From Hirudinaria manillensis (taxonomy: Eukaryota; Annelida; Clitellata; Hirudinida; Hirudinidae), in the NCBI GenBank assembly GCA_034509925.1, contig CM067527.1:7551501-7615500 (forward strand): DNA of 64,000 nucleotides, in the 5' to 3' direction. A program made the position numbers and the translations under genes. Of the stretch, positions 6,861-63,138 are shown piece after piece (positions within the stretch are counted from its first letter, which is position 1; each line of letters starts with the position of its first letter). Under the pieces are notes generated by a model. It was given only the letters and a program-made list of their open reading frames with translations. It was not told the origin of the DNA and did no database searches.

Positions 6861-7193
6861 AAGATTGTACAGGTCCAAGAGTCACACGATTTCTATCTCT
6901 ATTTTTAAAATTTAAAGGTTAAACTTTTATCAAAATTCTGATTTTATTGATCACAAGAAAGTAATTAATTAGTATTCAATAAAATTTGAATATTGATGAG
7001 AATCCACCAAGAAACGCTTTTGACATTGTTTCTTGGAGTTTCCGCAATGGAGCGTGGGGTATCTTCCATGGTGGTAAAAATTTTTTATTACAGGTTTCAC
7101 AAAAGTTCATTAACATAATAAGACTCCCTATATATTACTTGATGTCCATAACATGTTTATTGAATAAAATATCGATAGGTAACATTATTATTG

Positions 7194-8080
7194 ATGGGTT
7201 TAGGAAAGCAACTTAATGATATTGAAAGAGGACAAATTCTTGCCTTTAAAGACTTGAATTTGTCAATTTCTGAAATTTCTAGGAGGATGAATCGCTCTAT
7301 AAATGTTATTAGTCGTTTTTTAAGTGATCCTCAAAGTTATGGAACGATTTGTTCCCCTGGAAGAACAAAAAAACTGGATGAACGTCAGAGAAGAGTCATC
7401 CTTCGCGAAGCTTCCAAGGGGCTCAGTTCAACAAAGGACCTAAAAAATAGCTTAAACCTAAATGTCAGTAGATCGACAATATTGAGATGTCTCTGTGGAA
7501 GTGGTTTTCTAAAGTTTGTTAAGCGTCAGCACAAGCCACTTCTGATGGAGGCCCACAAGAAGTTCCGACTGAACTGGGCAAAGGAGATGCTGGATTTGGA
7601 CACCAGTTGGAAGTCCGTTATTTTTTCAGATAAAAAAAAATTTAACTTGGATGGTCCAGATGGATTCAAATTTCATTGGCATGATGTCGGAAAATGCAAA
7701 AACTCATTTTTTAAAAGAAATTTTGGAGGTGGCTCAGTGATGGTCTGGGCTGCCATTTCCTCTCTAGGTTCTTCAGAACTTGTGTTCTTAGAGGGGAAGC
7801 AAAACTCTGCCAAATATGTTGAAACTCTGGACCATCACTTGTTCACATTACGTGACAAATTTGGAAATGAAAGGGTCATCTTCCAGCATGACAATGCCCC
7901 TCTACAAACGGCAAAATCAACCAAACTTTTTTTTTAGGAAAGGAATTTGGAGGTTCTCAAGTGGCCATCTTGCTCCCCAGACTTTAACCCCATCGAACAC
8001 GTGTGGGGATTGCTTGCCAGGAAAATATATTGTAATGGCAAGCAATATTCCATCGTTTAAGAGCTGCATACTTCAACAAC
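7194..8080 (+). pseudogene. Tc1/mariner-family transposase, frameshifted and stopped
   Basis: The frame from 7194 reads a Tc1-type transposase: an N-terminal helix-turn-helix region (residues about 5-55, with LSISEISRRMNRSINVISRFL), a second HTH, then the DDE catalytic core. The first Asp sits in SDKKKFNLDG and the second in QHDNAP. A run of eight T at about 7927-7934 marks a frame shift. The next frame continues with WPSCSPDFNPIEHVWG, which supplies the third catalytic residue (Glu) at roughly DD34E spacing, and then meets in-frame stops. An intact family member is about 340 residues. Terminal inverted repeats were not located by eye. Confidence 0.88.
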
Positions 8081-11965: not shown

Positions 11966-13693
11966 CTAAAAATTGAGTAATGCAGTAAAATTATGAAATG
12001 AAATTCTATTGAAGTTTTTAAAAGTTTTAGCAGGCAATCAATTTTTTTTTAATTTCATTCTAAAAATTTTACTTAATATTTTAGTTTTCTTCACATTTGA
12101 TATATATTTAAGAGCTGTTAGAAAAAAATCCATGTGAAATACGTTGGAAAACCAGTGTTAATATTCAAAATAAAAATGTCGAAGAATAGTACACAACAAA
12201 GCTGCATTTCCATTTCTTACAAAATTCCAGTCATAATCTGGCGGTTTTTAACCTTTGCAATGACATTGTGCGTCGGGGCTTTCAGCAAAATTCAGAGATT
12301 TGTTCTATTTTTGACGTAGGAAAGCTACGAATTATTTCTATTTCTCACTAATAAAATCAGCAATGGTAGTAGAGTTATATAACTTTTTTTGAATTACCAA
12401 CAACTTTCAGTTTTGAATTGTTTTCGAAAAAAAGCCCTTGCATCTAGATTAAATGCAAACAATAATTTAACTTCATCCATAAATAAGACATTTCTATCCT
12501 TTTTTTTTTGTAACCGACTAGATACAGAAATTATATCATTTCGAAAATGTATAGCTTTAATGGTTGCCATAGTATTATCCAAAATCATTGATAATAAATA
12601 TTGCTAATAAATAATTTCAAATGATTTATGTGAAAATAGTAAACATTTTTTATGCGGATTTCTCCATTACGGTTTGATGAAAGGATGGAATAATTAACAA
12701 TAAAATAATAAACTCTGAATCATGAACGTCCTCATTCGCTTACGTAATGTTTGTTTTATGATTTCATTCGTGATTCATCCAAATTGGTTAGAAATTAGTC
12801 AAAACAAAAAGGCTTTGAGATTAATAAATATACATAAGTTATAAATATGTTAATAGAATTTTACGACAAAATGCAAAATTTAAACATTCAACATTTAATT
12901 TTAATTTAAACCAAAATTATTATCAAATAAACCCACGAATCTGCTAAGTCACCGTCACAAATACGCTCGTGACATGCAACGGACATGACACATTTATTCA
13001 TGCACTTAATTAGTATTATGATTCAACGTTATTATAACTACACAAGTGACACTATTAATCGTAATTATAATTATTTAAATGGCCCAGCCTTAAAAGTAGA
13101 TCCAATGATGACCCAATTAATTATATCCTCGGACAGGATGTCGATTTGCTCATCTTTCGTAGAACAGCAACTGATAATTACAAACATACATTGTTACTAA
13201 CTATTGTTATTTATTATTATTATTATTAATAAAAATTAATTATTACTACTATTAGTAATACTTTCCGGCCCGTGTCATTAATCTTATTTCTCATAGTGGT
13301 CTGATATTTCAATAGTCACAATCGTTCTAAATATGTGACTGCAAATGCCATCGATAAAAAACCCCATGACATTAGCAACAACAACAACAACAACAACAGC
13401 AAGAACTAGTAGAAGCATTGAATTGCAACAGTAAATAATATTTACTTTAAATACGTCAATTTAAACAACTTACAAATTAAATATTCACAAGAAAATTATA
13501 GAATCACATGCGGAAATACAATATTGGAATTATTTTAATGTATGTAATAATAATAATAATAAAAACAATTTATATTAATCATAATTCAAACACCATTTTA
13601 AAAATAGTACTGAAAGTACTCCCACTAACGATTCATTATTATTAATATTATTGCTAATAATAATAATAACCATAATAATAATAATTATTATTA

Positions 13694-13727
<34 letters not shown>

Positions 13728-13890
13728 CTTCAGTGGTTAAGTCGTTACTTCTCAGTGAAATTCCTTTCTGAGTACTCGATAGACAGGACTTTTATTTTCG
13801 AAGCTCAATTTCCGAATGATCGGCAATTTTTGGAACCCCTTTGTTAGGCTCTCTCTCTCAGACCGTGAAGGGGGGCATTCAGTCCGACGG
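11966..13890. other. AT-rich intergenic DNA, no gene seen
   Basis: Only scattered short frames are present. There is an (AAC)n run at about 13376-13400, an (AAT/ATT)n cluster at about 13630-13728, and long T-runs. The sequence becomes less AT-rich from about 13780 toward the promoter at 13.89 kb. Confidence 0.5.
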
Positions 13891-13898
13891 CATAAAAA
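13891..13898 (+). promoter_or_regulatory. TATA-like box of small gene copy 1
   Basis: CATAAAAAGAGG lies 203 bases before the proposed start of copy 1. Copies 2 and 3 have TATATAAAGAGG and CTATAAAAGGCG at about 120 and 222 bases before theirs. The shared TATA plus G-rich downstream edge supports a common promoter type. An ATG at about 13943 downstream opens a separate 48-codon upstream frame that ends at 14089. Confidence 0.5.
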
Positions 13899-14093
13899 GA
13901 GGGGAAGAGACCATCTCACAAGCATTTCAAAGTTGATCTTGCATGACTGGGTCATTTTATTGCGACATACAAAGAGAGGCGAAAGGAAACTGCATTGGCA
14001 TCCTTCCAGATTGTTTTGACGAACGAAGAATAGAAAGTATTTGCACGAGAATAAATTATTTCGTCGGTTTAAATCGAAGAAAATCGTAAATCT

Positions 14094-14339
14094 ATGGCGA
14101 CCATCATGTCAATATCCTTCGAGCAGTCGTGGAATGTGCCAATCACACTTCCAGACCATGGTGAGTTTACTTTTCATTTACTATAATAAAATGGTTATAG
14201 GTGTTATTGTAATAATAACAACAATAAATCTAATAACAAGATGTAATAATCGAATTAAATAAATATAATTGAATAATTGCTAATTCATAAAAACAATGAC
14301 TTTTAACTTTTATAAACACCGACAGGATATAAGAGGAAT

Positions 14340-14370
<31 letters not shown>

Positions 14371-14521
14371 TATATAATTATATATATATGTATATAAAAT
14401 ATGTATATATATATATATGTATGTATATAAAATGATTATAAAAATTATGTCATTTATATGTAAAAAATCTTATTTATTTTTGACAGATCTTCCATTTCCG
14501 GTATCCGATTTGATTTGTTAA
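14094..14521 (+). CDS. Small two-exon gene, LPDH/DLPFP family copy 1
   Basis: Exon 1 is 14094-14160 and exon 2 is 14487-14521, joined in phase 1 (GTGAGT donor, TTTTTGACAG acceptor), giving 33 codons plus stop. Exon 1 ends ...VPITLPDH and exon 2 reads DLPFPVSDLIC then stop. Exon 2 is exactly 35 bases in all three copies, with changes concentrated in third codon positions, which implies selection on the protein. The start ATG is in the context TCTATGGC, shared with copy 2. The N-terminal part is shorter than in the other copies and an upstream ATG frame precedes it, so this copy may be weakened or its start different. No signal peptide or membrane segment is visible. The function is unknown; it could also be the last exons of a longer gene. 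Confidence 0.6.
14339..14425. repeat. (TA)n-rich microsatellite in copy 1 intron
   Basis: Imperfect TA dinucleotide runs with TATG interruptions lie inside the intron of small gene copy 1. Confidence 0.9.
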
Positions 14522-16412
14522 TAAAAATAAGAAAAGAAATTTAACATGGCCTTTATAACATGACCTTTGAACGAAATGGAGCTTCTAATTGTTTCGTAAT
14601 GATTATTTATTTATTTATAAATCTTAAACGTCATTATTTATATTCGTCTGTCGGTCTTTTTTAAATTTCTTGGTTTGTTTTCTTTTATGATTTGATGTTT
14701 TGCCACTTCATTTGTCCGTTTCTTATGTATTATTCAATGGGGTAATAATAATAATTATTATAATAATAATAATCATGAGTCATGACATCAGATAAATACT
14801 TTTTGTTGAATCAACTGTCGTCGACGTAATGTAACGTGATGCTCCGATGAGGTTAGCGACCAATATTTATTCGAGTATTACTAAAAATACATTTTAACAT
14901 TCCATCGGACTTTCCTGCACTTTGTTCCTGCTTTCATTTCACAACAATTTTAATCTTTTTCTATTGTATTTTTTTCTTCTTCAAATTTTAGACTCTGATT
15001 TATAAAGTTTTAATTTATTTCTGATTGTAAAATATTTTTAAATGTTATTGTTGTTGACAAAAGAATTTTAATCCTAAATGATTACGTCAGAAGTTCACTG
15101 AGTTCTTAGAGGAAATAAATTTCGTTGCTACATACCCGAAACATTAAACGATAACAAAAGAGGTCAAAACAACAACAACAACTTTAATAATGGTAATAAT
15201 TTATTAATTTTATTATATTATTTAATTAATTTTATTAATAATGGTAATAATTTTATTAAAGTATTTTTAAGAGTTATAAGCAAATTAAGCAAAGCAAAGC
15301 AAATCAATACATAAACAGCGTAATGTAACATAAGCAAACAGATTAAATTTATAAATAAACTAAATATTAAAAAAAACAACAGCATTATTCCGACATCCAC
15401 TAATATTACAACTAAAACATATTGAAAACATATTAAAAAAATCATTTGATAACTCCGTTATGATGAATCTATGGAATCTATTTATATCTCCTTAACAATT
15501 AATAGATTCTCAAAATTGTCCTTAGCTGAGGGGCTTGTCGTAAACATATTAAAAAAGTCATAATAATGATAATTACTATTAATTTAATATATAAAATAAT
15601 AATTATTATAATAATAACAGGTGAAATAAAATGAAATAATAATCTATTGTAAAATTATCCAGGGTAGTTTGAACATCATAAAACATATCAAATATCCTCC
15701 CGTGAGAACCAGTATGGACCTGAGAAGTTGATTGCAGTGGATTGAAAGTATGAGTTGATGTCGTGGGTTGACAATGTGGATTGGTACTGTGAGTTGATGG
15801 TATGATTGATGGACTTCAAGAAGGCTCCACAAGTTTACAATCGTCTAGTTTGCTTAATACCCTCTGAATACCCTCCGAATACCTTCTTAATACCCTCTTA
15901 ATACCCTCTTAATACCTTCTCAATATCCTCTCAATACCCTCTTAATACCTTCCTTCATTAATTAACATTAATTAAAGAACATTTGTAAATATTTTCAAGA
16001 ACATTTATTTTTCGGCAAAAAAGCAATTTTTTTCTGATGTTTGAATCTTTTTTTTTTTATAAAAAAAAGTCATGGAATTGAATTAAATTAACTCATTATT
16101 AAACATTAATAATTACATGTTTGTTGTTTATTTACATTGTGCTTATAAAATAATTTATAAAAACATTTAAACAGCGTATTCAATTATTTAATATTATTTA
16201 AGCAATAAATTGAAATCAAGCATTGAAAAAGGTTATTGCAGGATATATTTTCAACTGAACAAAGCCATTTATTGGACCAAATCTGAATCGATGGCTTTAT
16301 AAACATTGGCATTATCAGATCTTCTTCAATTGACGATCTAAATTTAAAAATATGTCAAACTTCCAAGTCAGAAAATATACTTTTCAGATGACAGAATTAT
16401 TCAACACTGGTT

Positions 16413-16447
<35 letters not shown>

Positions 16448-17989
16448 TTTAATATAATAATAATAATAAAAATAATAGTAGAAGTAATAATAATAATAAT
16501 GGTATTCGCAATTAGATATTTTTAATAAAATGGAGATTTAGATACTTAATACGATTAATTTTTATTGTGAATTAACGAACAAACAGACTTAATTCTACTT
16601 AAAAGCTCATTTTATTATTTAAATATTGCAAAATCGTGAGAGATTTTAAAAAGCCATTTAACAAAATATTTGGCAAATGGTTAGATATATTTTTAATAAA
16701 TTATTTTTATTATAAATTATTTATTACAAACGTTTTTTTAATAAATAGTAAAACGTAAATAAATTGTTTGTAGCAAACCTTATCGCCATGCACCGATACA
16801 TAAATCTGTGGTCAGAAATATTGATATTAATTGTTTATGACCTGAAATCTTTAAAAATTCTTCATAAACTTCCAATACTTCAGTTGAGCCTCGATTAAAA
16901 AATGGGTTTTCAAAGGCCCACCCAGCGTCAATAAACTGTTGTTTATTAACTGATAAAAAATGATAAAAAGTGATAATATTTTAACTCGAGTGTCAGAAAT
17001 TTGTAACTTCCTTCAATGAGCTGAAAGCTTTTTGAAGCTTATTTGTGGTTATCATTTGATAACGTGGTAGGGCAACGTCGAATTCAAAATTATAATCATT
17101 TATATCATTTCTGACTTTCAATCTGATTCCAAGCAAACATATCTATTTATTTATTCATATTCTGAATTATTGATATTATTTATATATTTTTTTTCTGAAA
17201 GCCATTTGATTAAATCACTATTTCTAAGATCTGCACTTCCCCCAAATACAGCCAGACGAAATGCCACAATAGAATATTGTCTGAAAGGATCGCTTTAAGT
17301 TAAATTTAGCGTTTAATTGTGAGAAAATGCTTGAAATCCCTGGCTAATTTGATTTCTTTTGAAGCAATTAAAACATTCGAATGTGCCTCTAACCACGTAG
17401 ACCTGGATTCTAAATATACCACTTGGCAGTCAACCACGAGAATCTGATGAGAGCGGATTCACGTTCTTCAAGGAAGTAAACAGATAGAAACTCGTAAAAC
17501 TTGAGCCTTTCACGAAGCTCTGTTGGCCACTAATCTTTGAAAATATCTTCTTCGATATATTACGAACCTCATTTTAGTGACTTCTATCTTGACAAGCCTT
17601 TTAAAAAAATAATAATATTTATTATTATTATTATTATTATTATTGTTATTATTACCAGCTACGCTTCTATTAATAACAATAGTTGTTATTATTTTCATTA
17701 CTACTGGTATGTAATAACCATTAAAGTTTATATATTAACAAGTTATATTAGCAATACTAGATGCAGTTATAAAATTATAATATACTCACTTGAAATTAGA
17801 AATCCAAGCTGTGGAGCGAGGGGTTCCAGTTTATATGAATATATAACGAATTGAACTTTTTCTAAATAATTGTTTTATAAATTGTCGGTTGATTGAAAAC
17901 AATTTTGGTCAATCAATCAATCAATCCTAAGCATCCAAAGAATTTCGTGAGAGATTTTGAATAAGACAACCATGACTAAACTCGGACAG
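14522..17989. other. AT-rich DNA between copies 1 and 2
   Basis: No supported gene is seen. It holds an 11-bp minisatellite (15854-15953), AAT runs near 16420-16500 and 17610-17655, and long Asn/Ile-coding simple-sequence frames that are repeat artefacts. Confidence 0.5.
15854..15953. repeat. 11-bp minisatellite, about nine copies
   Basis: The unit is AATACCCTCTT with single-base variants (CTCCG, CTTCT, ATCCTCTC), repeated head to tail about nine times. Confidence 0.9.
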
Positions 17990-17998
17990 TATATAAAG
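17990..17998 (+). promoter_or_regulatory. TATA box of small gene copy 2
   Basis: TATATAAAGAGG is a strong TATA box. About 30 bases downstream is an initiator-like TTCAATT. The first ATG after that point is at 18110, the proposed start. The ATG at 18006 lies between the TATA box and the expected transcription start, so it would not be in the mRNA. Confidence 0.6.
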
Positions 17999-18109
17999 AG
18001 GAGCCATGCAAAAGACTTCAATTCTTGAACAACTGTTTCTGAGAACATATTTTTCAGAACGTTCGGATACAAATCTTTAGATTTTCTGACAAGAATTTCA
18101 ATATTTTCT

Positions 18110-18798
18110 ATGGCAATACAGGAAAATAAGCGAGCCAATGCTTGCATGTTAAAGGTCGAGGCCATGATAGGTTGGAGTTCAAAGGTCAGCGTCGATGGAT
18201 TTGAACGGGCAAAACAAACTCAGTTTTTTCCAATTCTTGTCACTTTGCCCGACCATGGTAGGTGACTTGATTTGAATTCGTTTTCTCAATTGCTTTATTA
18301 ATTATTCATGTCATTTAATTAATTATTCATGCCATCTTAGTAAGTAATGATCATCATTTACATTCTAATGTATTCAATTAATGTCTTTAATGTTACTTAT
18401 TGTTTTGCTACATCGATGCTACCGAGGACTCAATTCGTAAACTCGACGATTTCAAATTGTTTCTTGCTGATTTCAAGTTTAATTACGAAACATTATCAGT
18501 AAAATGGAATTAATTAAATTACAAAATAAGATTTCTTTCGTAAATGATAAGTTTGAAAAATACAGGAAACCCTAAAACTATTAAAAATATTGATTGTTGA
18601 CGTTCCGAGTGGTAAAGGCGTATTTGTAGAATAGAACTTCATTTTCATAGATTACATCGACCCTTCCCAATGATTGTGAATTCGATCCAATAATTGATTA
18701 TTAATAATTATCATAACAATAAATAATTTTGAATCATTAATAAATTTAAATAATTCTTTCCAGATCTTCCTTTTCCAATTGTTGACCTCCTCCAATGA
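18110..18798 (+). CDS. Small two-exon gene, LPDH/DLPFP family copy 2
   Basis: Exon 1 is 18110-18257 and exon 2 is 18764-18798, phase-1 junction with GTAGGT donor and TTCTTTCCAG acceptor, giving 60 codons plus stop. Exon 1 begins MAIQENKR and ends FFPILVTLPDH. Exon 2 reads DLPFPIVDLLQ then stop. The start is the first ATG downstream of a TATA box and shares TCTATGGC with copy 1. An in-frame ATG at 18164 is an alternative. It aligns with copies 1 and 3 over the last about 20 residues, with synonymous third-position differences. A short basic N-terminus and hydrophobic middle are visible, without a classical signal peptide. This is the best-preserved member. Function is not known. Confidence 0.68.
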
Positions 18799-21700
18799 AA
18801 GGTTCTCCTTCGAAGTGGAACTTTGTTGATCAATGCTTTATTTATTTGTTTGTTTGATTGTTTCTTTGTTTGTTTATTTAATTATTTCTTTGTTTGTTTA
18901 TTTAATTATTTATGACTTTGTTGATCGATGCTTTATTTGTTTGTTTGTTTATTCAATTATTTATGATTCATCAACAATTGTTCAACTTACGAAATATTGT
19001 TTCATATTTTTCCATCGTCTCAATGTATTTGACAATGTATTGACAACAAAGCATTGTTGATGCCATCAAGAAGACAATCCATGCCGTCTTTCCGCATCTC
19101 ATTCGTTTCGGTTGTTTAAAGACAATTGTTTTTTGTTTTGTTTATGTTTTCTAAATGTTTATGTTTATGTTGACTCAAGCCTTTATCTCGAAAAGATTTT
19201 ATTCAAGTTTTCAGTGTTTTCAGTCAATTTTCGATGCCATGACGACTAGTAAACTTATTGAACTTATCCAAATCATGCTTATCAATACTTGACGACACGT
19301 GACCAGATTTGTTAACATTTACAGCCGTTGGAAACTTTTTTTTTTTACCTGAAAGTTAAAAAAAACTAAGAAAAACTTTTAAAAAGAGTTTTTGTCTGAT
19401 GTTTTTAAAAGTTAATTTACTAAGAATAAGCGGGAAATGGTGAACAGACAAGAGAGGAATTCGTTCAATGATATCCAAAGATTACCTTTAAGAATTTGTT
19501 TTGTACCGGTAATGTTTGTAATGAAACATGACTCATTCTAAGCAAAAAAAGAAGAAGCTCATTGCTTACATATCGAGAAGATTTTTTACGCTTCTTTGTC
19601 TTTAGAAATGCATCCCATGCGAATGACTGGCATACTTCACGTGCTTTTGTGATTGGTTACTGAAGTATTTCGCCGAAATCGTCCAATGAAATCCATTAGA
19701 CCGAGTGACCAAATTTGAGTAGATTTGAAACTGCAGTCCAGTATCGGAGTCTAAGAAAGGACTTTAATCAGATTTCCTTATCTGTTAACGACGGATGCTA
19801 CCTTCTGACCTGGCAGACTTTTCTCGACCTATTTTTATGGTTTGCTATTGGTTGAAAAAATTGGATAAATAAATAAATAATTGAGTAATATTAATAGTTT
19901 ACACAGAAGCATTTGCTGAGTTAAGAAGACTTGAATTCCCATGAATCAGGCTGCAAAGGTCCGGTATGAAGAAGTAAATGATGTCTTCGATTATGTAGGT
20001 CATGATTAATCAGATGAACAAGATTAATTACTACGTGTTTTGGGTTTTTAACACTTGAAATAAGGGGAAGTACTTTGCGTGAAGAGTCACTGAGGGCACT
20101 TGAGATGTGACCTCGGCTCTTTAAGCAAATTTCTTTAAAAGGAAGATGTTTTGCTGGTCTTTCAGATTAAATTGATAATTCTGGCTATAAATGGCTTGGA
20201 AAATTTTTACAAGATGTGAAAAGTACATCCTAGTTCTATAAAATTAGACTTTTGAGAGCGATAGTACAAATGAATTGAAATAAATTTCTGGTGACAGTAA
20301 ATCCCCGATACGAATCTGATGTGTGCTGATGTTCTTTATACGAAGTCCATGGTTTATGGGGTCACATGAAATTTTAAACAATCTCCATTCTACAACCTAT
20401 AACCACCTTTGCCCTTCGAAGTTCAAAGATCAAAATTCCGTAGGGAGGTGGATTTTAAATTTAAATGAAATATTTAAAAACCATTGACTTTGAAATTGTT
20501 TCAATGCGGTGGGATTGATACGAGGACGTTACGATTCAATCAGATATTTAGATGTATTCAGACAAAGATATTTCAATCAATCAGTGGTAATAAATAAACA
20601 AATATCGATTATAAATTGAACTCATCTTGAAATCCAAATGAAGAAGCTGCACAATGGTTCAGAAATCTTCATTTTATCGAACCGACGAAAATAGAAACTG
20701 CGCAGTTCGATAAGATTTGAAAAAAGTTCAATTGACTTTTGGTCTCCCGACCTCTTCATGTCAACGAAAACTGAACTCAATTTTACAGATTTTTTGTGGT
20801 CGGCTTTATTAAATTACTGAATCAATTAAAGTTAAGAGTCGGCTTTGAGATGGAGTTTTCAAGTTTGGGACAAGTTATCAGCTAATCTAATTTGGTTAAT
20901 TTATGAGGTAAAAGATTATTAAATAATTAACTGTTATTAATTTGTGAGGTTAAAGATTTAATCGATGACTTAGACTAAGACTGAGTATAATTGAAGATAC
21001 AATGTTAAGCAAAATGTGAGACAATATGTTTATCCCCTCAACAAAATCAATTTAAAAACTTTTAAAAACTGGTTAATAACATTATTTTAACTATTTCTAT
21101 TATTTCTCAGCCTCTCAAGAAATTCCAAAAATTGAGAAAGTGATGTTTAACAATATTGGAAGTGCAACTTTTTTGGATAAAACCCTCCACAAGTACTTGA
21201 AAATAACGTTTAAAAATAATTTAAACTTTACGCCACAATTTTACGCCTTAATTAGGTTTATTTATTCGAAATCTGAAGGACCTCGCAAGTATTGCAAAAT
21301 CTCAACTGGAAAATGTTTACAGACGTCTTCACTTCGATGTGTTCTGCGTCCCTCATTTTGTATCTTGGTTTTTACAGAAGAAAAAAAGAAGAAAATGTTT
21401 CGTTTGGAATATTTATTTGCAAAAAATATCATTAAAAATGCAGTAACTGAAGAACAACGAAGACATAAAAAAGTGGAGAAAGACTTCCACGAACTCGGAT
21501 TCAACAACTGAAAGTCACCAAATGAACTGAAAACAAACTCTCGATAAACATCCACAAAAAAAGGCACTCGTCGCAAAGAATAACTTGAAAACAAATAAAT
21601 TATATTAAATAAATTATTACTTAAACACGTAAATATATTGAAGAAAAGACGTTTAAATAAAAACAATGCGACAAGATTGTCCAAAGATAGCGATGACTAC

Positions 21701-21945
21701 ACTCTGAGGAATAAATGACTGAAGTTTGCAGCATGGCAAGACTTATTAAAACAAAATCCGGTCTGCCGAAAACTCTGTTGATTAGTTTCCATGACAGCCT
21801 AGTCATCCGTGACTTGGAATGTTTCCAAGGGCTAGGAAGGTCTTTCTGTGGCGCGCCCTCTCGTGGCTCGAGGGGCGGTCGGTTGGTTGCCTCGATATCA
21901 TGATATGCTGATATGTTGTTGATTCACTGTTCCCATAGCAACTCC
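18799..21945. other. Region between copies 2 and 3; one 123-codon open frame
   Basis: It is mostly AT-rich, with TTTG/TTTA repeats at 18838-18965. A frame at 21140-21511 (plus, 123 codons) ends in a charged helix-like tail (TEEQRRHKKVEKDFHEL), and the opposite strand is open for 140 codons over 21262-21684. Neither has recognisable similarity or clear splice support, so I do not call a gene. Confidence 0.3.
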
Positions 21946-22292
21946 TCAATAAGTCATGTCGACCAACGGAAAGGGAAGATCTGTTAAATGAATGAGGACG
22001 ATAATGAAACAATTGATTGATTTGTCAAATCGTTGACTACGAGTAATTTAATTTATTCAATAAGATTAATTAATTTATAATAGCTACCTACAAACGACAA
22101 CATCCATGTTTAAACCATAAAAGCTCAAAAATATTCAAATATTATTTTCACTTTATACTCAACAATTCCAATCATGCAATCACCGAATCGCTTCTCGCAA
22201 AACATGGAAATCAACGAACCGTGGTCAGGCAGCATTATGAAGGGCGGAAACCATTGCAATTTCGTTTCTGAATTGTCAAGAACTTCTTGCAT
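21946..22292 (-). CDS. Small two-exon gene, LPDH/DLPFP family copy 3 (inverted)
   Basis: On the minus strand exon 1 is 22292-22220 and exon 2 is 21980-21946, joined in phase 1 after a 239-bp intron (GTTCGT donor, a weak match; TTAACAG acceptor). The product is 35 codons plus stop: it starts MQEVLDNS, exon 1 ends FPPFIMLPDH, and exon 2 reads DLPFPLVDMTY then stop. The start is the first ATG downstream of the TATA box at 22507-22514. Exon 2 has the same 35-base length and stop position as copies 1 and 2. It lies about 4.1 kb from copy 2 in the opposite orientation, so the family arose by local duplication with an inversion. Function is unknown. Confidence 0.65.
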
Positions 22293-22506
22293 CTTTCGGT
22301 TTTCAAACGTTTTCTTGAAACTTTTCGACGAATAAACTCAAAATTCAAAATCTTTAAATATTCTTCTTGAAGCGAACGATCGTTTAGTCGTCGTACTGTA
22401 GCAGTCGCAGTAGTAGTAGTAGTAGCAGCAGCAGTAATTCGATCTCTAATCAGTCTTTATGTACTTGTTCTCGTAGTAGTTTTGAGAGAAATCGCTCTCG
22501 ATGCGC

Positions 22507-22514
22507 CTTTTATA
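22507..22514 (-). promoter_or_regulatory. TATA box of small gene copy 3
   Basis: The minus strand reads CTATAAAAGGCGC. No ATG occurs between the expected start about 30 bases downstream and the proposed start codon at 22292. The 5' UTR carries a run of CTG/CTA triplets (about 22395-22440). Confidence 0.6.
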
Positions 22515-22519
22515 GCAGT

Positions 22520-25469
22520 TCGAAGTTAGCCACGCCTCTGTCGCTGGTTTCCTCATCGTTGGTAAAATTCCTCGAATTATTTCAACATCTGAGTAATTAC
22601 ATCCTGATTCTTTGTTCCTTTTCATCTTCTTTTGAAACAATCAACAACACGTGTTCTTGGATGAAAAGATGCAACAACAAGGAAACAATTAATATGCAGT
22701 TAATCGTTCTATGTGTCAGTGCAATCTCTAGAAATGTAGAATAACCAATGACAGCAGACATCCGCCACAATATTTTTGTTTTTGTTTCTGTTTATTTAAC
22801 AGAGTAATCTTCAAATTGACATTAACAGTTTCGGAAAGTCAGAGGTATTCACCTCCTTAAATTATGCCCCTCGACAAAGCAACAATAAAGTTATCGATTA
22901 GAGGAAGTAAACGTTAGCGATTTACCGTCGATTTGATATTTTAAAATTAAAAATGCACGTTGAAAAAGTTGAAAAACGACGGGAATGTTTACAAAGTGAA
23001 AGAAAATGATTTCCAAACGTGATGCAACATCGCATTCCAACAACATGACATTCTTGAATCATCAGCACTCAAACACACCCACGTCGCAGCCTATTTTTAG
23101 CTCCATTGTGACCTCGTACCATGCAGTCATAGACATGTGATGATATGAGATAATATAATATAATATAATATAATATAATATAATATAATATAATATAATA
23201 TAATATAATATAATATAATATAATATAATATAATATAATATAATATAATATAATATAATATAATATAATATAATATAATATATTATAATATAATATAATA
23301 TAATATAATATACCAAATCATAATTATTATAAATGTTTGTCTGAATTTTTAATAATTTTTTTTCTTCATTTTTTAAGATATTCATAAATAAATTGAAGGT
23401 GTACAGTTAATCAATTTAATCAGGAAAATATTTTAAGAGCATTTATCAGAGTTAAGTCTTTAAATATATAATATTAATTAACTGAATAATATAATAATAA
23501 ATGTATAATAAATAATATATTAATTTATAAAATCTATTAGCGCCTGATTGATGAATAAATAAATAAAATTAATTAACCACTAAATGCCATTAAATGCAAA
23601 GGAATTACTTACGGAAAACATTCTCCTAAAAAATCGATAAATACAATTTTAAAAATATTATTTAAAAAAGATAATTCTTCAGAATTAAGTTATTCTTAAA
23701 TGAATAAATACATAAAAAGTTACAAAAAATATAATAATTATTAAATATAATAATTAATAATAATATTAATATATATAATAATTATTATTACTATTAATTA
23801 TTTTTTATAATTATAATAATTATAATAACAATAATTATTATTATTAACATTACTATTGAATAAGTCATAAAGTAGGACATTTGATTGATGACATGAAAGT
23901 TATGAATGACTAATTCATTGTCACCTTCATTACCTAATGACAGAGTCATCATCATCATCATCATCATCATCATCAGCACCGAGTTGATTGGTTTTATTAT
24001 TTATTAAGTTATTAATTATTCATTAGTTGTTTAATTATTACTAAAATCGATGTCAAAAATTCTTTAAACACAAAGTATTAAGCTTATGACGATGTTTATC
24101 TTTATTATTATTATTAAAAATTATTATTACAATTAATTAATGTATTTTGATTTAATTGCATATTTTGTATAGTATTATTACATATTAATATAATAATATC
24201 ATGTCGTTATTATTATTATTATATTTTTTATTACATATTGGCACCGAATTGCACCACGTAGGCGCCCACAAGTCTTAACCATCTGTGGTTTGAACTCAAT
24301 GAACTTTCGCTTGAATTCTCTTCTTGATTTTTACGCGTCTGAAATTAATTGCGTTTTACGAATTTCTGAGAAAAATATGAAGTAATTCGTAATTACATTG
24401 TTTACAATTTACAAACCCGCATTACGCAATGTTATTACAAGTTGTTGCATCTCGATGTGATGTAATGTTATAAGACTGACGTACGTAGTACGCAGTGTTT
24501 CAGATAAACTTATAATGGAAGCATTTGGAAGGTTCTTTTGTAACTATTCCCATGACCTGATTACAATAAACAATTTATATCATTAATTAACTGTTATTAA
24601 TAAATAATAATAATATTAATAAATAGTATTAATAAATAAGTCATCGTAGCCTAAAATTTCGCTTTCACGAGACGCATTCAGAAGCTCTAATCAACGATTC
24701 CCTGGATTCCTAATGATTTTGTCAAACATTTGAATATTCGCAATTTCAAAATTGAAGTAATTGAAACATTTTTAGCTAATTAAGCGACAAACATTAGCAT
24801 AAAATAATCACACGAATCGGGCCACACAAGGAGACAACTCGGACTGACATACTTTTTAGCGCAACCTTGTCAGAAGGACGTCGAAATCTTTCGTTCAACC
24901 GACCACGTGCTTCTGAACCGACCAATTCAAGTTTCCCTCGCAACACCATATTTGGAATTGACAAAGGTTAAAGCGATTGAAGCGTTTAAAAGTGAATTGA
25001 AGTAAAAAGATTTTTCTGAATCAACGTTTGAAATTCGCTCGGTATGAAAGGCACGCGGTCAGGTGAGATGAAGGTGCTATCAGCGGACATCTCAAGAATG
25101 CCGTACTAGACATATCTATGAAAGACTAGAAGAACAAATGATATTCAGAATATTAATAATTTTCAAGAAATTATTTAGAAATTTAGAGGAATAAATGCAA
25201 TTAAATGATCGTCTGATGTCGAGTGAATCTTCGCCGGTTGCGGGCCACGCGTGCCACCGGTCTTGGCCTCCGAGGAATCCCGGGCATTCGCGTGAAATGC
25301 GAGTGATTTCACACCCAATAGAGATTTATCGATGCTCGAGAACTATGTCTCGGATGAGTAGGCCTCTCGTGGTAGGACGGTGCGCGTCACCCCATCGCCC
25401 CACGTCACGCCATCGCACCACGCGGCAACTTCCTTTCCATCTTTGGAAGAGTTCTGCGGTCTTTTCCAG
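22520..25469. other. AT-rich intergenic DNA with simple repeats
   Basis: It contains the pentanucleotide array at 23151-23312 and a (CAT)n run at 23948-23975. No supported coding region is seen. From about 24810 the GC and CpG content rises. Confidence 0.45.
23151..23312. repeat. (TAATA)n pentanucleotide array
   Basis: About 32 near-perfect copies of TAATA with one imperfect unit near 23281. The long Tyr/Ile open frame across it is an artefact of the repeat. Confidence 0.97.
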
Positions 25470-29931: not shown

Positions 29932-31579
29932 ATATCAATAACAATAATGTCAATGAAAGGTTTAAGCGCAAAATGCTGAAAGCAGAGACAGTCACCTTTT
30001 CATCCGTTTATTAAATAAAAATCATTTTATTATATCTTCGTTTTTATCACATAAAAACGTATTTCAATCAAAAAAAAGTATTGCATTTCGTTGGAAGTTG
30101 AAAATTAAGATGTACATTTATTGTTTTTAAATGAAAATGTAAGCTTGCCTTAATCTGTGAAGCATCGACTAGTTAAGATGTGATTAATAATAAATAATAA
30201 TAATAACAATAATAATAATAACAACAAATAATAATAATGATAATGATATTTACAAAACAAACACATATTTATATATAAACAATTTTAGGAGCAGACATTT
30301 TAACGTGATATTTAAAACAAATTTCAATATTGCCAGTAAACCAAAATAACAAAAATCAATTAATGCTACCAAACTTATTTATATATAAAATGATAATACT
30401 CGATAATATTATTAACATATTATCATGTAATGTAATTAAAATACCATTATAATTTTAAAATAATGATATTATAATATAATAAATAATAATATATTAATTA
30501 ATAATTTTTTAATTATATTATTTAAATTAATATTATATTTTGATTTAAGCATAATTTTTAATTTTTTAAACAACGAGAAGCCAAGCGAATGAAAGGAAAA
30601 ATAAAATGTTCTTCGCTGCCTTTTGTTTTGACGATTCGCTCCTGACATCTGCCGAATGAAATAAAAATAAAATAACATTATAATTTTATTTCTCAAGAAA
30701 TTATTTTATAAATCCAAGGCAATTGATCCAATTGTCTCAATAATTGATTATTATTTAATTAAATTATTAATTAAAAGAATTTAATTTTGATTTAATTGAA
30801 ATCAATTAATTGCTAAAAAATTAATCGTTATTATTAATAAATTATTTTGACAAATCCAACTATATTTGACAATAATAACTAATTACGATAACATTAATTT
30901 CAGTATTTCAAGCCTTAAAGCATTTTCAGAATGTAAATTAATTAATCCTGCTCAACTTTAGTGTATCTAATCCAGGACTTTATGTGATTAAATTTTGTCT
31001 TTATACGATTAAATTTTGTCTTTATACGATTAATTATGTCAACCGTTGGAAAGTTTTTGGTCAAGAAGTGACGAATGAGTGAGTAAATGCTTTTTGGTTG
31101 CAACTTGTGACGAATCCTTGTCATGGATTCTGTTCAGACTCCTTGATGGCTTCACTTCTGTTGAATTGAAATCCACTTTTAAATAATTCATTTTTCATTC
31201 TAAAGTATTTACAAATCAATGTTTGTTAGTTTGTCGTTAATTTACTAAAAATAGTAATTTAAAGACAGTCTATTGCTTATATTTCGCATTGTTTATCAGA
31301 GATTATCCGTTTGTAAACGATCTTTACGAGGTAATAGAAAATTGAAAATCAATTTTTATTTTTAATGACTGAAATAATAACAAATGCAATCATAACTGAT
31401 TGCTGATCAACTTATCAATCAGTAATACTCGATAAGTAGATTAAATTAATATTATTATTACCAATATTAATATTAATAATTAATATAATAAAGTAATTAT
31501 TATTTTGTAATAATCAATTAACATTAACCATAGAAACTCCAACAGACTTTCAAAGATAGAAAGAAAGAAAAAAAAATAC

Positions 31580-32013
31580 TGACGAAATAAATGAACGACA
31601 TCTTGAGCACTGCCCAGGTAGTTGGAAGCGACACACCTGTAGTCACCGTAGTCCTCCGCCGTGAGGTCGGAGATGGAGATGCCGAGGGTGATGGAGAACT
31701 CGTCCTCGGGGTAGGCATCCACCCGATACTTGGGGGACTTGTCGAGTCTTTTCGAGTTCTTTTGCCAGTAGTTGATGGCCAAAGGGGAGGCTCTGATGAT
31801 GCAGTTCAGAATTGTTTCCCTGCTGCCAATGAACTGACCGAGTCTTCTCGTTGGTAGAGTGATTTCTGGAGGGACTGAGGTTTCGATTTGAGGCGTTACT
31901 AATTTAATTAATTAATTGGTTAATTAATTAGTTGATGACTGTGAGTCCTTAATTAGTTTTGGATTTCTGGTTGAATTTCATTTCTCAGAGGATTTAAAAT
32001 AATCGTAATAATA

Positions 32014-32054
<41 letters not shown>

Positions 32055-33493
32055 ATCTCTAACAAGGTGAGGAAATAATTTAATTAAAGTGGTATTTGAC
32101 GCATAATAACCATTTATAAAATATTCTTAGAAGGCGAATTAATTATTACTTTTATTATTAATTATTATTATTGTTATTTTTATAATAGATTTATTATATT
32201 TTATAATATAATTAGTACAAAAAGAAATTGAATTCGAACTGAGAGCCGGATCATCTTACAGCGGGTTAGATTGGATTTCCTAAGACATTAACAACCTTTC
32301 AGAGATGAAACACTTGGCAAATAAATGAGTAAACTCATTTTTTTCAATCAAATCCTCAAATTCTAGGTTTCAAATCGTTAAATTTATTATATTTAATATA
32401 ATGTATTTATAGATTTTTTTTAAAAAATAAACTTAAAAAATAAAAGTTAATGGTCTGAAATTAAATTTTTTAAGTCTTTTAAAATTTAAATCTTAATAAA
32501 TATTTAAAATATTACCTATAGTATTAATATAAATTATGAACATTTAATTTTTATTATTATTGTTATTATTTATTACTATTGTTATTATTTTTAAAGACCA
32601 ATTGAAGGTCAAAAGAATGAGATAAACGAAGGAAGCGGCTGATCAATTTTAATGTTCAAAGATGCGAAAGATTAGAATTTATTTATAGCACAAAGAATAA
32701 CATCAAACAATTATTCACTGAAGTATTAATATACTATAATTAGACCTCAATAGTTTGACAAATAATAATAATAATATCTAATAATAATCCCAGCAAAAAA
32801 AGTCATCCATCCTTCAGTCCATCGCCACCCCAAAGAAAAAAGAAAAGATAAGCGAAACTGGGGAGACGTGTACCACCGGAGTTGAAGTTTTGTTGATTAC
32901 AGAGACAACAAGGACATGCAGCGGACTGTAAATCGTCTGCACTGCACAACTTCAAATGATTTTCTCGATCGCTACTCCAGTCAGGTACTTGTTACGCTCC
33001 ATTGAATTCGGCACACACAGCGCCGTCTGTCCAAGCAACGTTTGCCTTTTATTTTTTTAATTTATTTGTGATCCCTCTACAAGTTATTATTATTGTTGTT
33101 ATCCCTGATGGGTGTCTGTCTTTTCCCTTGCGAATGTGTGTGTGTATGTGTGACTGAGGATATCTCAAGGACACCAATCAGTTAGGATCTACTTTTATGG
33201 ATAATTTACTTAGCCAAATATTTTCTTCAAACCAGCATAAATAAACACTTTAATTAATATTAAACAATTTAACTGATATTAAACCAACCAATTGCAATAA
33301 TTAGATTCAATATTAACTAATTAACCAATCAATTAATGTTATTATATCATGTTCTCCTTTAATACTGTCACACACCTTAGAGTTAAGTACAATCTCAGTG
33401 GGTTGACACATACATCTCCATATCTTCTCCTTCAGCAAACTCTCAGATATCCTTATTAATTGTAAATAATAAAATAATAATAATAATAATAAT

Positions 33494-33556
<63 letters not shown>

Positions 33557-36500
33557 CAATAATAATAATAATGATAAACAAGACACAACGCTAAGAATAC
33601 CTGTCGGTAATAAACTGGTAATAATCTAATAATGAACTAATAATAAAGCAATGACAAAGCAATAATAAACCAATAATAACCAGAGAACCAATTGTCAGCT
33701 CATAAGGTCATCCACCCGTGAAATTCCATGAATATCAAACAGAGGTACTCTGCGGACAGAGGAAGTCAAACATTAATCTTGTCCGTTCTTGATGGACGTG
33801 GTTTGAGATTGCTGTCGTTTGTGTGCGTGTGTACGTGTTTACGTGTGCTTATGTTTTTGCACGTGTGACGTCCAAAAATAGACGAAGACAAAAATATCGA
33901 AAGAGCAAATATAGAACTTGCGTCTGTTTCTGCAAAATGTTTTATGGACAAATTAAGTTATTAAGAACGATAAGTTATTAAAACCAACAGGTTGATTAAA
34001 GATCACAACATGTTGAGACTTAAACCTTTTGAATTCATTAACATATTTTAATTTTCATCATCATATTTATTTGATTGGTTCGTGAAAGGAATTTAACAAA
34101 TAGCCCACCCCCAGCTTGACATTTTGCGAGATCAGTAACGTCAATAAATAAGAACCATCAACATCATTATCAGCATCACATTAAGGTCATCAGGGTAATA
34201 TCATTACAGCATTAACATAACAATCAAATAACCACAACATCGGCATCATCATCATCATACTGACGTAATGACAAACATAATCGTCTTCCTCAACTCAGCA
34301 TCAGCAATACAACCACACTGGCATGGACAAGGACACAGAAAGGGACACCAACATTGAACGGAGAGCACGAAGTCATCCTCGTCAGAATCAGGGATGTCAT
34401 TCGATGCCAGGCATCTGATCCTACCCTTGCACTTCCTCGATATGTTTTCAATTCTCAACTCCTCTCCTTCGTACGACCAAATGGAGCCCGGTAAGTGACC
34501 TTGGCGCGTTCGAAAGTCTTATTACAATTAATAACGATCATAATAAGACTTATTATTGTAATTATTATAATAATATATAATAACAATAATAATAATAATA
34601 TTTTGATAATTATAGTAATATATCATGACAACAAGGCCAATAATAACTATGAGGCCAATTTTTTTTAAGTAATTAGAATCCTTTTACAAAACAAACAAAA
34701 TCCGATGAAATTCTGTCTCACTTTGATTGTACGTCAGTTCACCATCACCAGGTATGATGACGCATCCAGGTAACTGATCCTCCGCCTTCCTGTACCACGT
34801 GATCAGCGGCTTTGGGCTTCCGGTTGCCGTGCAGTTGAGGCTGATGTCGTCTCCTTCTTTGATGCTGATGTCGTTGGTCGAATGTTCTCGGACGATTTTC
34901 GGAGGAACTTCATTTTGTGTGCAGAAGTGATAGGTGTTTAAATTATTAGTATTGGTTACTAATAACCATTGGTATTAGAATTAATTGTTATTATTTTATG
35001 TTAGAATTACCGCAATGAATGCAATAAGAGAGTTTCATGAACGCAGAAAAGGCACATTACATTCAGATCTGATCCGAATGATGAACAGTTTTAACCTTAG
35101 CAATAAAGATAAATAATTCAAAAATCTTGTTGAAAATAAATTTCAATATTGGTGGAAGTTCAAAGGTGAAACCACTGAAAAATGCAAAAGTATGACTTAA
35201 AATATGGCTCCATACATCCGCAAGCCATAAATGCAGAGGTAAAAGTAACTTAATAATAATAATGATAAAAGTAATATTAATAATAATAAAGATAATAATA
35301 ATAATAACATTAATATCATTCCTTAACAACAAAATATCAACAATAATATTATTATAAACAACAATAATAATAATAAACTAGTATATTTAACTCCAACCCT
35401 TGACAAAGAGATTGACCTTCTTCTCCTTGATTGGCAACGAATTGACGCTGCAGAGGTAGGTACCAGCGTCGCTCCCTTTGACGTACGTAATTTGGAGGTT
35501 CCAATCGTTGACGTCCATTCTGACCACCGAGAACCTGTGGTCATCAATGACCCTGTACTCACCGTGGGTCAGTGGGATGTGCAGTTTGTCTATCCAGACC
35601 ACCTGGTTCGCGATCGTATCGTAATGGTGTCTAAGCACAGTGAAATTATGTCGAGGGATTACGAAGTGGTAATAAGAATATAAATGATTAATAAATGTCA
35701 ATTAATTAAAAGTTTTTAGGAAAAAATATTTTGTCATTTGAAAACTATCGTACCATATTACAATATCTTATCATAATAGGATCCACATTTTGATAGCCTT
35801 ACAAAAATCCAAATTGCACTATAATATCTCTAATAATAATTTAATAATGCTATATTGATAGTATTTTAATCCACGATAACTTTGTCAATATTAATATATA
35901 TATAAATGCATATTTTACTACTTCTGAATAAACAAATCGATGCCTAACAATAACTTACTTTTTAACAATATCATTTTAATAATGTTTGTTAATAAAATGC
36001 GGTAAGCCGCCGAGCAGAGTGGCGCAGTGGAAGCGTGCTGGGCCCATAACCCAGAGGTCCGTGGACCGAAACCACGCTCTGCTATCGGACCCTTTTCGTT
36101 GATGCTTTATATAATTATTAAAGAATTAAACTAATTTAATTATTGTAAATGTTCACAATGCAATTTAATGGTTATTTAAAAATATTTTAAAACTATTAAT
36201 TGAAATAAAGATTTTTTTAAAATATATCTCTTAAAGTCTTCTAAGACTTGATTGCAAATATAATTATTTTCTTTTAATGTTATTATTAATAGTATAATTA
36301 ATAATATAATTAATAGTATAATTAATAATATAATTAATAGTATAATTAATTATATAATTAATAGTATAATTAACAATATAATTAATTATATAATTAATAG
36401 TATAATTAACAATATAATTAATAGTATAATTAATAGTATAATTAAGTATAATTAATAACATAATTAATAGTATAATTAATAATAGTAATAATAATACATT

Positions 36501-44800: not shown

Positions 44801-45566
44801 TCAAATAACTCTAAAAAAAATAAAAGATAATTTGAAATATAATTTATTAATATTATTTAATTATAATTTGAAATATAATTTATTATATTTTAGATTGTAA
44901 ACAAAAACATTTTATAATTTATTTACAAACATTTAATTAAAGTCTGTTGCCCAATTAGTTTAACAATGTTTGTTAATAGAAACATTACTTCCTAATTTCC
45001 ATGTCCAAATGGATCTTCAGACAAGTCTTCTGCAATTGTTGAAATACGACTTTGTTTCTTCACCTCGACCATCTGTCCATCTGTCCATCTATAGGTCCGT
45101 CTATTTATATATTTGTCTGTCCGTCCGTCATTTATATATCTGTCCATCCATCCGTTCACTTGGTTTCCATTTAATCTAAAGAATATTTGTGCTCGTAAAG
45201 CTCATAGAAATTATAAATAAGTCACCTCATCACTTATGATGTTGAAAGAAGATAGCAATTCAAGCGATGTAATGCATTGCATAATTTATATTACGATATA
45301 ATAGTTATTCAATAATCCAAATATTATTCATATTTATAAAGTAAACAAAGTCAGAAATTGCAACATGATATAAACAATGTGATGATGATGGTGGTGATGG
45401 TGATGATGATGACGACGATGACGACGACGACGATGACGATGATGACAATGATAATTCTGTGGGTCATTACGTCCAACACTCCTTAATGTGGAAACAATCG
45501 AACATTAAATCCACTCCCAATCCCATTGCAATGATGATGTCATAAGATGGAAAGATGAACATGTGG

Positions 45567-46096
45567 GTGGATGGATGGATGGATGGATGGATGGATGGAT
45601 GGATGGATGGATGGATGGATGGATGGATGGATGGATGGATGGATGGATGGATGGATGGATGGATGGATGGATGGATGGATGGATGGATGGATGGATGGAT
45701 GGATGGATGGATGGATGGATGGATGGATGGATGGATGGATGGATGGATGGATGGATGGATGGATGGATGGATGGATGGATGGATGGATGGATGGATGGAT
45801 GGATGGATGGATGGATGGATGGATGGATGGATGGATGGATGGATGGATGGATGGATGGATGGATGGATGGATGGATGGATGGATGGATGGATGGATGGAT
45901 GGATGGATGGATGGATGGATGGATGGATGGAGTGATGGATGGATGGATGGATGGATGGATGGATGGATGGATGGATGGATGGATGGATGGATGGATGGAT
46001 GGATGGATGGATGGATGGATGGATGGATGGATGGATGGATGGATGGATGGATGGATGGATGGATGGATGGATGGATGGATGGATGGATGGATGGAT
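45567..46096. repeat. 530-bp (GATG)n tetranucleotide array
   Basis: About 130 near-perfect GGAT units with one interruption (GGAGTGAT) near 45930. Because the unit is four bases, each frame reads a tetrapeptide repeat: W-M-D-G on plus and I-H-P-S on minus. These long frames are not genes. Confidence 0.98.
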
Positions 46097-46758
46097 ACAT
46101 GGATTGATTAGGATATTATCAATTGTAGTCTGGAAAACTCTTCGAATTTTAAAGTTTTGCAAGCGTTGTAATAATTTGAAAAAGCGTTTGTAATAATTTA
46201 ATTTTAAAAATTATAATGTGTTTAGTATTATAATTTTAATAAAATATAATAATTTTAACAACTCTCTATGGGGGAAAGCCGAGATGAAGACCACCAACAG
46301 TTTTACTTGAATTATGATGGATTGGACTATTATTTCAAGACAATGATGGCGATGAAGAAGAAGACGAAGATGATGATGATGATGAAGTAATGACGACGAT
46401 GATAATGATGATGATGATGCCTTATCAGCTGATCAAGTCAGCAAATGTGCTTCTCTGCGATAAGCCGGAGACCCAAATATTTTTATAACACCAAGGATTG
46501 TTAAGGATTGGAAACTCTTCAATTTTTAAAACAATTTGAGACGTGTATTATTTTTTATTATTTATTATTTATTATTTATTTATTCACAATTACTTCTTTG
46601 TGATGTCATCCTACTTAAGGACGATGAAGGATATGATTATTATATTTATTAACTTGTTATTATAATTATTGACTTTTCCAACGCAATTATTATCATGATT
46701 CGATGATGACGATGATATTAACAATAACATCACATTGTTATTGTTTTAATTGTCATTG

Positions 46759-59185: not shown

Positions 59186-59398
59186 TGCTGACAATTCCTA
59201 TTTTTAAGGCTTCTTTCGCTGAGTCAATAAATATGTATTCAGTTGTTTTAACTATTGTTGTAATATTATTTATATCATGAAAATAAATATCTTGTGAATG
59301 TTTATATCTGTTTATCGATCGACGTTAATGCACATCATTTATTCCCCATCTTCCAGATCCCACACTTAAAGCACTTGTAACCGTTCAAATATTCATCG

Positions 59399-61789: not shown

Positions 61790-62510
61790 ACTGTATTTAT
61801 TATCACATTTATCGTTATTATTCATTCGACTAGTAGATAAATAAGTAATTAGAATCCATTAATTACTAAATTATTAAAATATACAGTTCGATTTTCCAGA
61901 GAAAGGTTTCTTTTTGCAAAAGAAAAGCAAATAAAGTTGGTCTTAAGATCGCTTTCGCATTCAGCCTGCACGTTATGGATGTCTCACATGTCCTCTTTGA
62001 AATGTTATTTCTATTGCAATTTATCACCTGTTTGTAGTTTTTTTATGTTCTATTATCGCTCGTGCAGTCATAAAGTCAACTTTATCTCGACTGCCGCTCG
62101 TAAGAGGTCGTCCATTAGCATCCCTTATCGTAATAATATGCTCTTCGTAATCATTATTATTTATAATTGTAACTCGACAATAATAGTTATTCGATAATGA
62201 TGGCAATTAGAAGTATAATTATGAAATTAATATTTAATGAAATAAATGGACGAAGAGGCAAGTTGCGTTATCAATAAGAGCATGGGGATGTGGGATTCGA
62301 TGGCACAATTCTTTTGATGTGTCATTCTTCGATTATAATTCTTATTAATAATAAGTTATTTATTAATTAATATTATTAACAATTCACTTGCATCATTTAT
62401 TGATTCTCGAGCGTCACAAAGCTACATTTAGCAGAAAGTTAAATAAATTGCCATTTGGATCAATCCTATCGTTAATAACTTTTATTACTTTCAATTTAAC
62501 ATTAACTGAA
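61790..62510. other. Region after the 796-codon exon
   Basis: An acceptor-like TTTTCCAG at 61889-61896 is followed by a frame open to about 62195 that could be a further exon of the preceding gene. No donor or stop decides this. The rest is AT-rich with nothing recognised. Confidence 0.3.

Positions 62511-63138
<628 letters not shown>

Follow-up and report, generated by a model that had tools for sequence, protein, structure and literature searches.

The stretch analyzed here, a 64,000-nucleotide window of the Hirudinaria manillensis genome (C2:7551501-7615500 of a 148-Mb, 23-contig assembly), contains three short two-exon genes whose predicted products share a conserved C-terminal motif. Positions 13000-23500 were read directly, and the genes are named G1 (the 14094 gene, plus strand), G2 (the 18110 gene, plus strand), and G3 (the 22292 gene, minus strand). 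Exon 1 of G1 (14094..14160, 67 bases) reads MATIMSISFEQSWNVPITLPDH + G and is followed by a 326-bp phase-1 intron (14161..14486, GTGAGT...TTTTTGACAG) and by a 35-base exon 2 (14487..14521), which encodes (D)LPFPVSDLIC and a stop. G2 consists of a 148-base exon 1 (18110..18257, MAIQENKRANACML...FFPILVTLPDH + G), a 506-bp phase-1 intron (18258..18763, GTAGGT...TTCTTTCCAG), and a 35-base exon 2 (18764..18798, (D)LPFPIVDLLQ and a stop). On the minus strand, G3 has a 73-base exon 1 (22220..22292, MQEVLDNSETKLQWFPPFIMLPDH + G), a 239-bp phase-1 intron (21981..22219, GTTCGT...CATTTAACAG), and again 35 bases of exon 2 (21946..21980, (D)LPFPLVDMTY and a stop). The predicted products are MATIMSISFEQSWNVPITLPDHDLPFPVSDLIC (G1, 33 amino acids, aa), MAIQENKRANACMLKVEAMIGWSSKVSVDGFERAKQTQFFPILVTLPDHDLPFPIVDLLQ (G2, 60 aa), and MQEVLDNSETKLQWFPPFIMLPDHDLPFPLVDMTY (G3, 35 aa).

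All three introns have GT-AG borders and lie in phase 1, with the second D codon of PDHD split G|AT; by eye, GTTCGT of G3 is the weakest donor of the five members described in this study. Without splicing, unrelated residues would take the place of the tail in each gene. A preliminary description of the window had reported three loci with these coordinates, exon lengths, and products, and direct reading bore it out; exon 1 ending in LPDH, the phase-1 intron, and the 35-base exon 2 were present at 3/3 loci. Its account of exon 2 as DLPFP plus six variable residues was correct for DLPFP but not for the variability of all six, among which one D is invariant and is followed by L or M.

The TATA box and first-ATG start claimed for each locus were found in G2 (box 17990..17998, plus strand, TATATAAAG) and G3 (box 22506..22514, minus strand, TATAAAAGG), but G1 has only an imperfect TATA-like box (13891..13899, plus strand, CATAAAAAG), with the ATG 203 bp further on. 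With the transcription start placed approximately 28 bp after the TATA, the first-ATG start applies to G2 and G3 only, whereas G1 has an upstream ATG 24 nt into the leader. This ATG opens a 48-codon upstream open reading frame (13943..14089, plus strand), which terminates just before the G1 start and would lie inside the expected 5′ leader, provided that the leader is intronless.

Further members in the genome

Patterns in which amino acids were fixed and synonymous positions were free were run over all 148 Mb. The exon-2 pattern derived from the window had three exact places, all inside the window (reversed control, 1), and five places with one mismatch (reversed control, 4), including C3:7750158 and C11:2767576. 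At both of these, an exon 1 ending in VPDH|G was found upstream on the same strand, across a phase-1 intron of 891 bp (C3, product MINIGKQEQFRTKFYYPETVPDHDVPFPLSDLVYK) or 312 bp (C11, product MAPNEIEMFTVQWTYPDTVPDHDVPFPLTDLVYK). The family is therefore not confined to the cluster in the window, and the search for further copies with the same phase-1 intron, which the preliminary description had proposed as a check, yielded two.

When V was admitted, the exon-1 pattern NTNCCNGAYCAYGGTNNGT had seven exact places genome-wide and the exon-2 pattern AGAYNTNCCNTTYCCNNTNNNNGAYNTN had five, all five of which were preceded on the same strand by an exon-1 place, at a distance of 250-902 bp. Outside the window, two exon pairs separated by no more than 1 kb were seen vs. 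2.7e-5 expected, a comparison that is flattered by the widening of the patterns to V after the find. Taken singly, the patterns were much less selective: the exon-1 pattern with up to one mismatch had 76 places (reversed control, 47), the exon-2 pattern with up to two mismatches had 162 (reversed control, 154), and two other single patterns had four places each (reversed controls, 1 and 0). Because a shorter exon-2 pattern matched 14 places vs. 12 for its reversed control, with exon 1 upstream only in the same 5/14, exon 2 alone is not diagnostic; the pairing of exons carries the signal.

No further pair within 3 kb was found by eye when 100 of the 162 exon-2 places (those on contigs up to C7) were compared with all 76 exon-1 places, and a relaxed exon-2 pattern revealed no more copies in the window or in the 50 kb flanking it at either end, where the scan ran in 10-kb pieces. 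Intronless or processed copies were rejected, with none in the whole genome at up to one mismatch to the joined pattern. A pattern search of genome contigs gave 60 stretches, none of which was confirmed.

A candidate sixth member was found at C9:1839173 (minus strand; candidate spanning C9:1839386-1839137), one of three one-mismatch exon-2 places; the other one-mismatch places, on C4 and C8, had no matching exon 1. It reads TTTCAG|DIPFPLKDDLF-stop, preceded across a 157-bp phase-1 intron by KRDH|G with a GTAAGA donor. From its own in-frame ATG (MSG start) the product would be MSGFFLPSDLPSKISKRDHDIPFPLKDDLF (30 residues), and its motif, RDHDIPFPLKD, agrees with that of the family only in part. 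No TATA-like word was present in the 700 bp before this ATG. A TATA box is present approximately 1 kb upstream of this ATG, together with an open frame whose N-terminus is signal-like and whose phases could join the candidate. The candidate is likely, although not certainly, a divergent sixth member; alternatively, it could form the last part of a gene that begins with this signal-like exon.

In 5/5 genes, a TATA-like box preceded the ATG by 120-667 bp (120-222 bp in the window genes), and G2, C3, and C11 had additional TATA-like words upstream. TATAAARRG was not enriched across the window (5 seen vs. 6.7 expected). In C3 and C11, the distance from the expected start site to the ATG was 392 and 639 bp, respectively; both genes contain upstream ATGs, which must be tolerated unless there is a 5′ intron. 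Eight seven-mers (TATA words and A/T runs) were shared by at least 4/5 promoters, and no eight-mers were; because resampling gave up to 12 shared seven-mers (mean 1.5), those observed were not accepted as a regulatory element. Polyadenylation signals were close to exon 2 in G1, C3, and C11. In C3 and C11, the stop codon lies one codon further downstream than in G1, G2, and G3, where its place is identical.

Motif conservation and database relatives

A single-sequence search with P2 and a search with a 21-residue piece gave no matches. Among 154 candidates, a profile of the five members picked out three proteins: P0004 (59 aa, E 1.9e-8), P0005 (50 aa, E 1.2e-3), and P0006 (79 aa, E 5.5e-3). P0005 is contained unchanged in P0006, which leaves two independent relatives. 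These read ...YPVTLPDHDVPFPLVDLIYK... and ...IYKPDHDVPFPMADLVYK..., with a MAG start and PDHDVPFP[LM]xDL[IV]YK; an MA start is also present in 3/5 members here, and the tail DL[IV]YK is common to the C3 and C11 members and to P0004-P0006. All three proteins are listed as short, and in all three PDHDVPFP is unbroken, precisely as the predicted splice would join it, which supports the predicted join. Over the C-terminal 20 residues to YK, P0004 matched the C11 member at 16/20 and P0005 at 13/20 positions; neither value was reached by any of 200000 shuffles, but both proteins were chosen by similarity search, and the profile E-values are therefore the fairer measure. When P0005 was compared with viral contigs, none of 28 stretches was confirmed. 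One viral-contig match (L056) was rejected as chance; by eye, the opposite strand of the same stretch also codes for an integrase-like frame.

The kept motif is [LVK]-PDHD-[LV]-PFP-x-x-D-[LM], 13 residues in length, and PDHD[LV]PFPxxD is present in G1, G2, G3, C3, C11, P0004, P0005, and P0006. In the predicted gene models, a phase-1 intron falls between H and D of PDHD in 5/5 members and in the C9 candidate. Within a 14-codon block of the five genes, more than one codon was used at 7/8 invariant residues, and the split Asp had the codon GAT in every gene. For the sum of 10 pairs, the proportion of synonymous differences (pS) was 0.80 and that of nonsynonymous differences (pN) was 0.16, with a ratio of 0.06-0.35 in 10/10 pairs; these values are flattered, since the block was picked as conserved, the patterns forced most C3 and C11 residues, and pS is saturated, and they are a description rather than a clean test. 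With synonymous sites near saturation and the motif kept, the earlier claim that protein rather than DNA is conserved was upheld. Residues that were not forced by any pattern are better evidence of selection than this ratio: C3 and C11 were alike at 6/8 of these, and P0004 and P0005 agreed with C11 at 5/8 and 3/8, respectively.

At the DNA level, alignment of G1 with G2 or G3 was limited to 22-39 bp surrounding the start of exon 2. One other match, of 22 bp, lies downstream of G1 and G3, and the remaining ones, between C3 and either G1 or G2, fall in upstream DNA rich in simple repeats. The gene copies are judged to be old, because almost no DNA-level alignment remains between paralogues.

The family was not recognized in the databases searched. 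Three members matched no Pfam family with the E limit set at 10; among 8 sequences compared with the limit at 1, the only match was Nup96 (0.079), which is not credible. NCBIfam gave no credible family (best 0.17), and no match to any solved chain was found in PDB. LPDHDLPFP, VPDHDVPFP, PDHDVPFP, DHDVPFP, DHDLPFP, and DHDIPFP were unmatched in a literature search with most subscription journals outside its coverage. The products of 33-60 residues have, as the preliminary description stated, no recognized domain or signal peptide (the latter judged by eye). Its reading of the loci as an undescribed protein-coding two-exon family gained support from the C3 and C11 copies, from the database relatives, and from the lack of a family, structure, or text match. 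That these sequences are genes is well supported, and they are best read as an undescribed family of the kind termed conserved microproteins.

Other features of the window and assembly

An open frame of approximately 800 codons (59381-61789, plus strand) matched no Pfam family and has relatives P0001 and P0002, which are 67 and 65 percent identical. Exons encoding I-set/V-set immunoglobulin domains (31480-35701, minus strand) belong, by eye, to a lachesin-like cell adhesion gene, and a remnant of a Tc3-type transposase lies at 7179-7937 (plus strand). Long tandem arrays with SIHP and LFIY in several frames (45505-46111 and 62506-63177) appear by eye to be simple repeats and not genes.

Elsewhere in the assembly, cox1 was readable with the invertebrate mitochondrial code on a 15.6-kb contig, followed by cox2, an atp8-like frame, cox3, tRNA-Gln, and nad6 (all but cox1 and the tRNA identified by eye); this gene order is typical of annelids. 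All 4341 bases fetched from L017 (C9:3024946-3029286) were 99.7 percent like the mitochondrial contig, across its end, and L017 would be either mitochondrial DNA recently copied into the nucleus or the product of a join in the assembly.

Interpretation and comparison with known systems

The best explanation, which we favor at slightly better than even confidence, is that G1, G2, and G3 are a cluster of old paralogues from an undescribed annelid family of microproteins, that this family numbers five or more members in the genome and has relatives elsewhere, and that its products would be intracellular, unstructured, and engaged in docking. The N-terminal part appears to vary freely, whereas one motif near the end, split by the fixed phase-1 intron, appears to be strictly kept. 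The putative product is most likely unstructured and would stay inside the cell. A single docking motif in an unstructured protein is suggested because the N-terminus is free, no domain or solved chain was matched, and the stretch is rich in Pro and Asp with a hydrophobic end. Through the motif, as an extended, proline-braced peptide, the product may dock in a pocket on a single conserved partner, which it would then either block as a competitor or bridge as an adaptor; we give this part of the reading close to an even chance. The gene copies would differ in the time and place of production and not in binding. A docking role, like the binding peptide or degron suggested earlier, is what we infer from these features. 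The keeping of a 13-residue motif amid near-total change elsewhere points to an unchanged partner, for which the motif offers a ready peptide bait (PVTLPDHDVPFPLVDLIYK).

Several observations weigh against this explanation. Upstream ATGs in G1, C3, and C11 make the true 5′ ends uncertain. In G2, neither AATAAA nor ATTAAA was found up to 700 bp from the exon-2 start, and in G3 the nearest is 563 bp from it. Exon patterns taken singly barely exceeded their reversed controls (5 vs. 4, 14 vs. 12, and 162 vs. 154). In addition, the relatives have 13 (P0004) and 12 (P0005) residues beyond YK, and P0006 has more; a position at the very C-terminus is therefore not essential, and the shared C-terminus of the preliminary description applies to the genome members but not to the relatives.

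The 392 and 639 bp between start site and ATG in C3 and C11 make a 5′ intron and another exon likely, and they agree with the two exons being the last of a longer protein, with the motif as its C-terminal tail; the TATA box and signal-like frame approximately 1 kb upstream of the C9 candidate, with no TATA-like word in the nearest 700 bp, point the same way. We consider this unlikely, given that P0004 and P0005 appear in the database as short sequences with a MAG start, that 3/5 members start with MA, that the ATG of each window gene has a TATA-like box 120-222 bp before it, and that the C9 candidate has its own in-frame MSG start, which gives 30 residues. Somewhat less likely still is that the genes encode precursors of secreted peptides, with the motif as the mature peptide. 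Small size, clustered copies, and variable N-termini would suit such precursors, as would the possible signal-like upstream exon of the C9 candidate and its KR directly before DHDIPFP; KR in G2 and KK in P0004 both lie far before the motif. By eye, however, neither a hydrophobic N-terminal signal nor a dibasic pair directly before the motif is present in the five members, P0004, or P0005.

The motif might instead be a ligand already catalogued, such as PxVxL, which we take to be the chromoshadow (HP1)-binding motif, and the family a new carrier of it. PIVDL (G2), PLVDL (P0004), and PLVDM (G3) fit, but PVSDL (G1), PLSDL (C3), PLTDL (C11), and PMADL (P0005) do not, so that P-x-V-x-[LM] occurs in only three of seven distinct members; most of the conserved part, PDHDxPFP, is outside that motif, and we regard this identity as very unlikely. 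A COP1-type VP motif, considered along with other catalogued motifs, was also rejected: where TVPD has V, other members have L or K. Chance resemblance in AT-rich noncoding DNA, with no gene at all, would be compatible with the near-control counts of the exon-2 patterns and with the commonness of TATA-like words. It is ruled out for practical purposes by the joint count of exon pairs (two outside the window vs. 2.7e-5 expected, with patterns widened after the find), by the copies outside the window, and by the database relatives (E 1.9e-8 and 1.2e-3).

Gene predictors are likely to overlook genes this short, with a last exon of 35-38 bases, and to our knowledge few microproteins have been described in annelids. 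Several well-known microproteins encoded by small open reading frames (smORFs) are membrane peptides; unlike these, the present family does not, by eye, consist of membrane peptides, and the searches made revealed no sequence relation to smORF microproteins. It resembles metazoan smORF microproteins, a class named in PMC10036370, in having fewer than 100 codons and conservation at the protein level.

The Bearded family, inhibitors of the E3 ligase Neuralized, offers a possible likeness in mechanism, in that small proteins are proposed here, too, to act through one partner. Brd genes are clustered, and Bearded proteins have an NxxN core. The present motif differs, and the NxxN core resembles just one stretch of G2. 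Pfam presumably includes a Bearded/E(spl)m4-type profile, and no Pfam match was obtained for three members at E up to 10. Hairy_orange was identified in at least three places in the genome (C9, C8, and C6), with WRPW at the end of two of the frames; none of those identified is on C2, the contig of the window, and a nearby E(spl)/Bearded complex is not supported. The mechanism may be Bearded-like, but membership in the Bearded family is not supported. If confirmed, the family would add an intracellular regulator family for annelids. More tentatively, and at less than an even chance, it may represent an unnamed class of intracellular microproteins of annelids and perhaps wider, in which PDHDxPFPxxDL serves as an inhibitor or adaptor and local copies serve as a timing switchboard. 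Such a class would parallel the Bearded proteins of Drosophila, which PMC5693868 describes as small and as binding to Neuralized in competition with its substrates.

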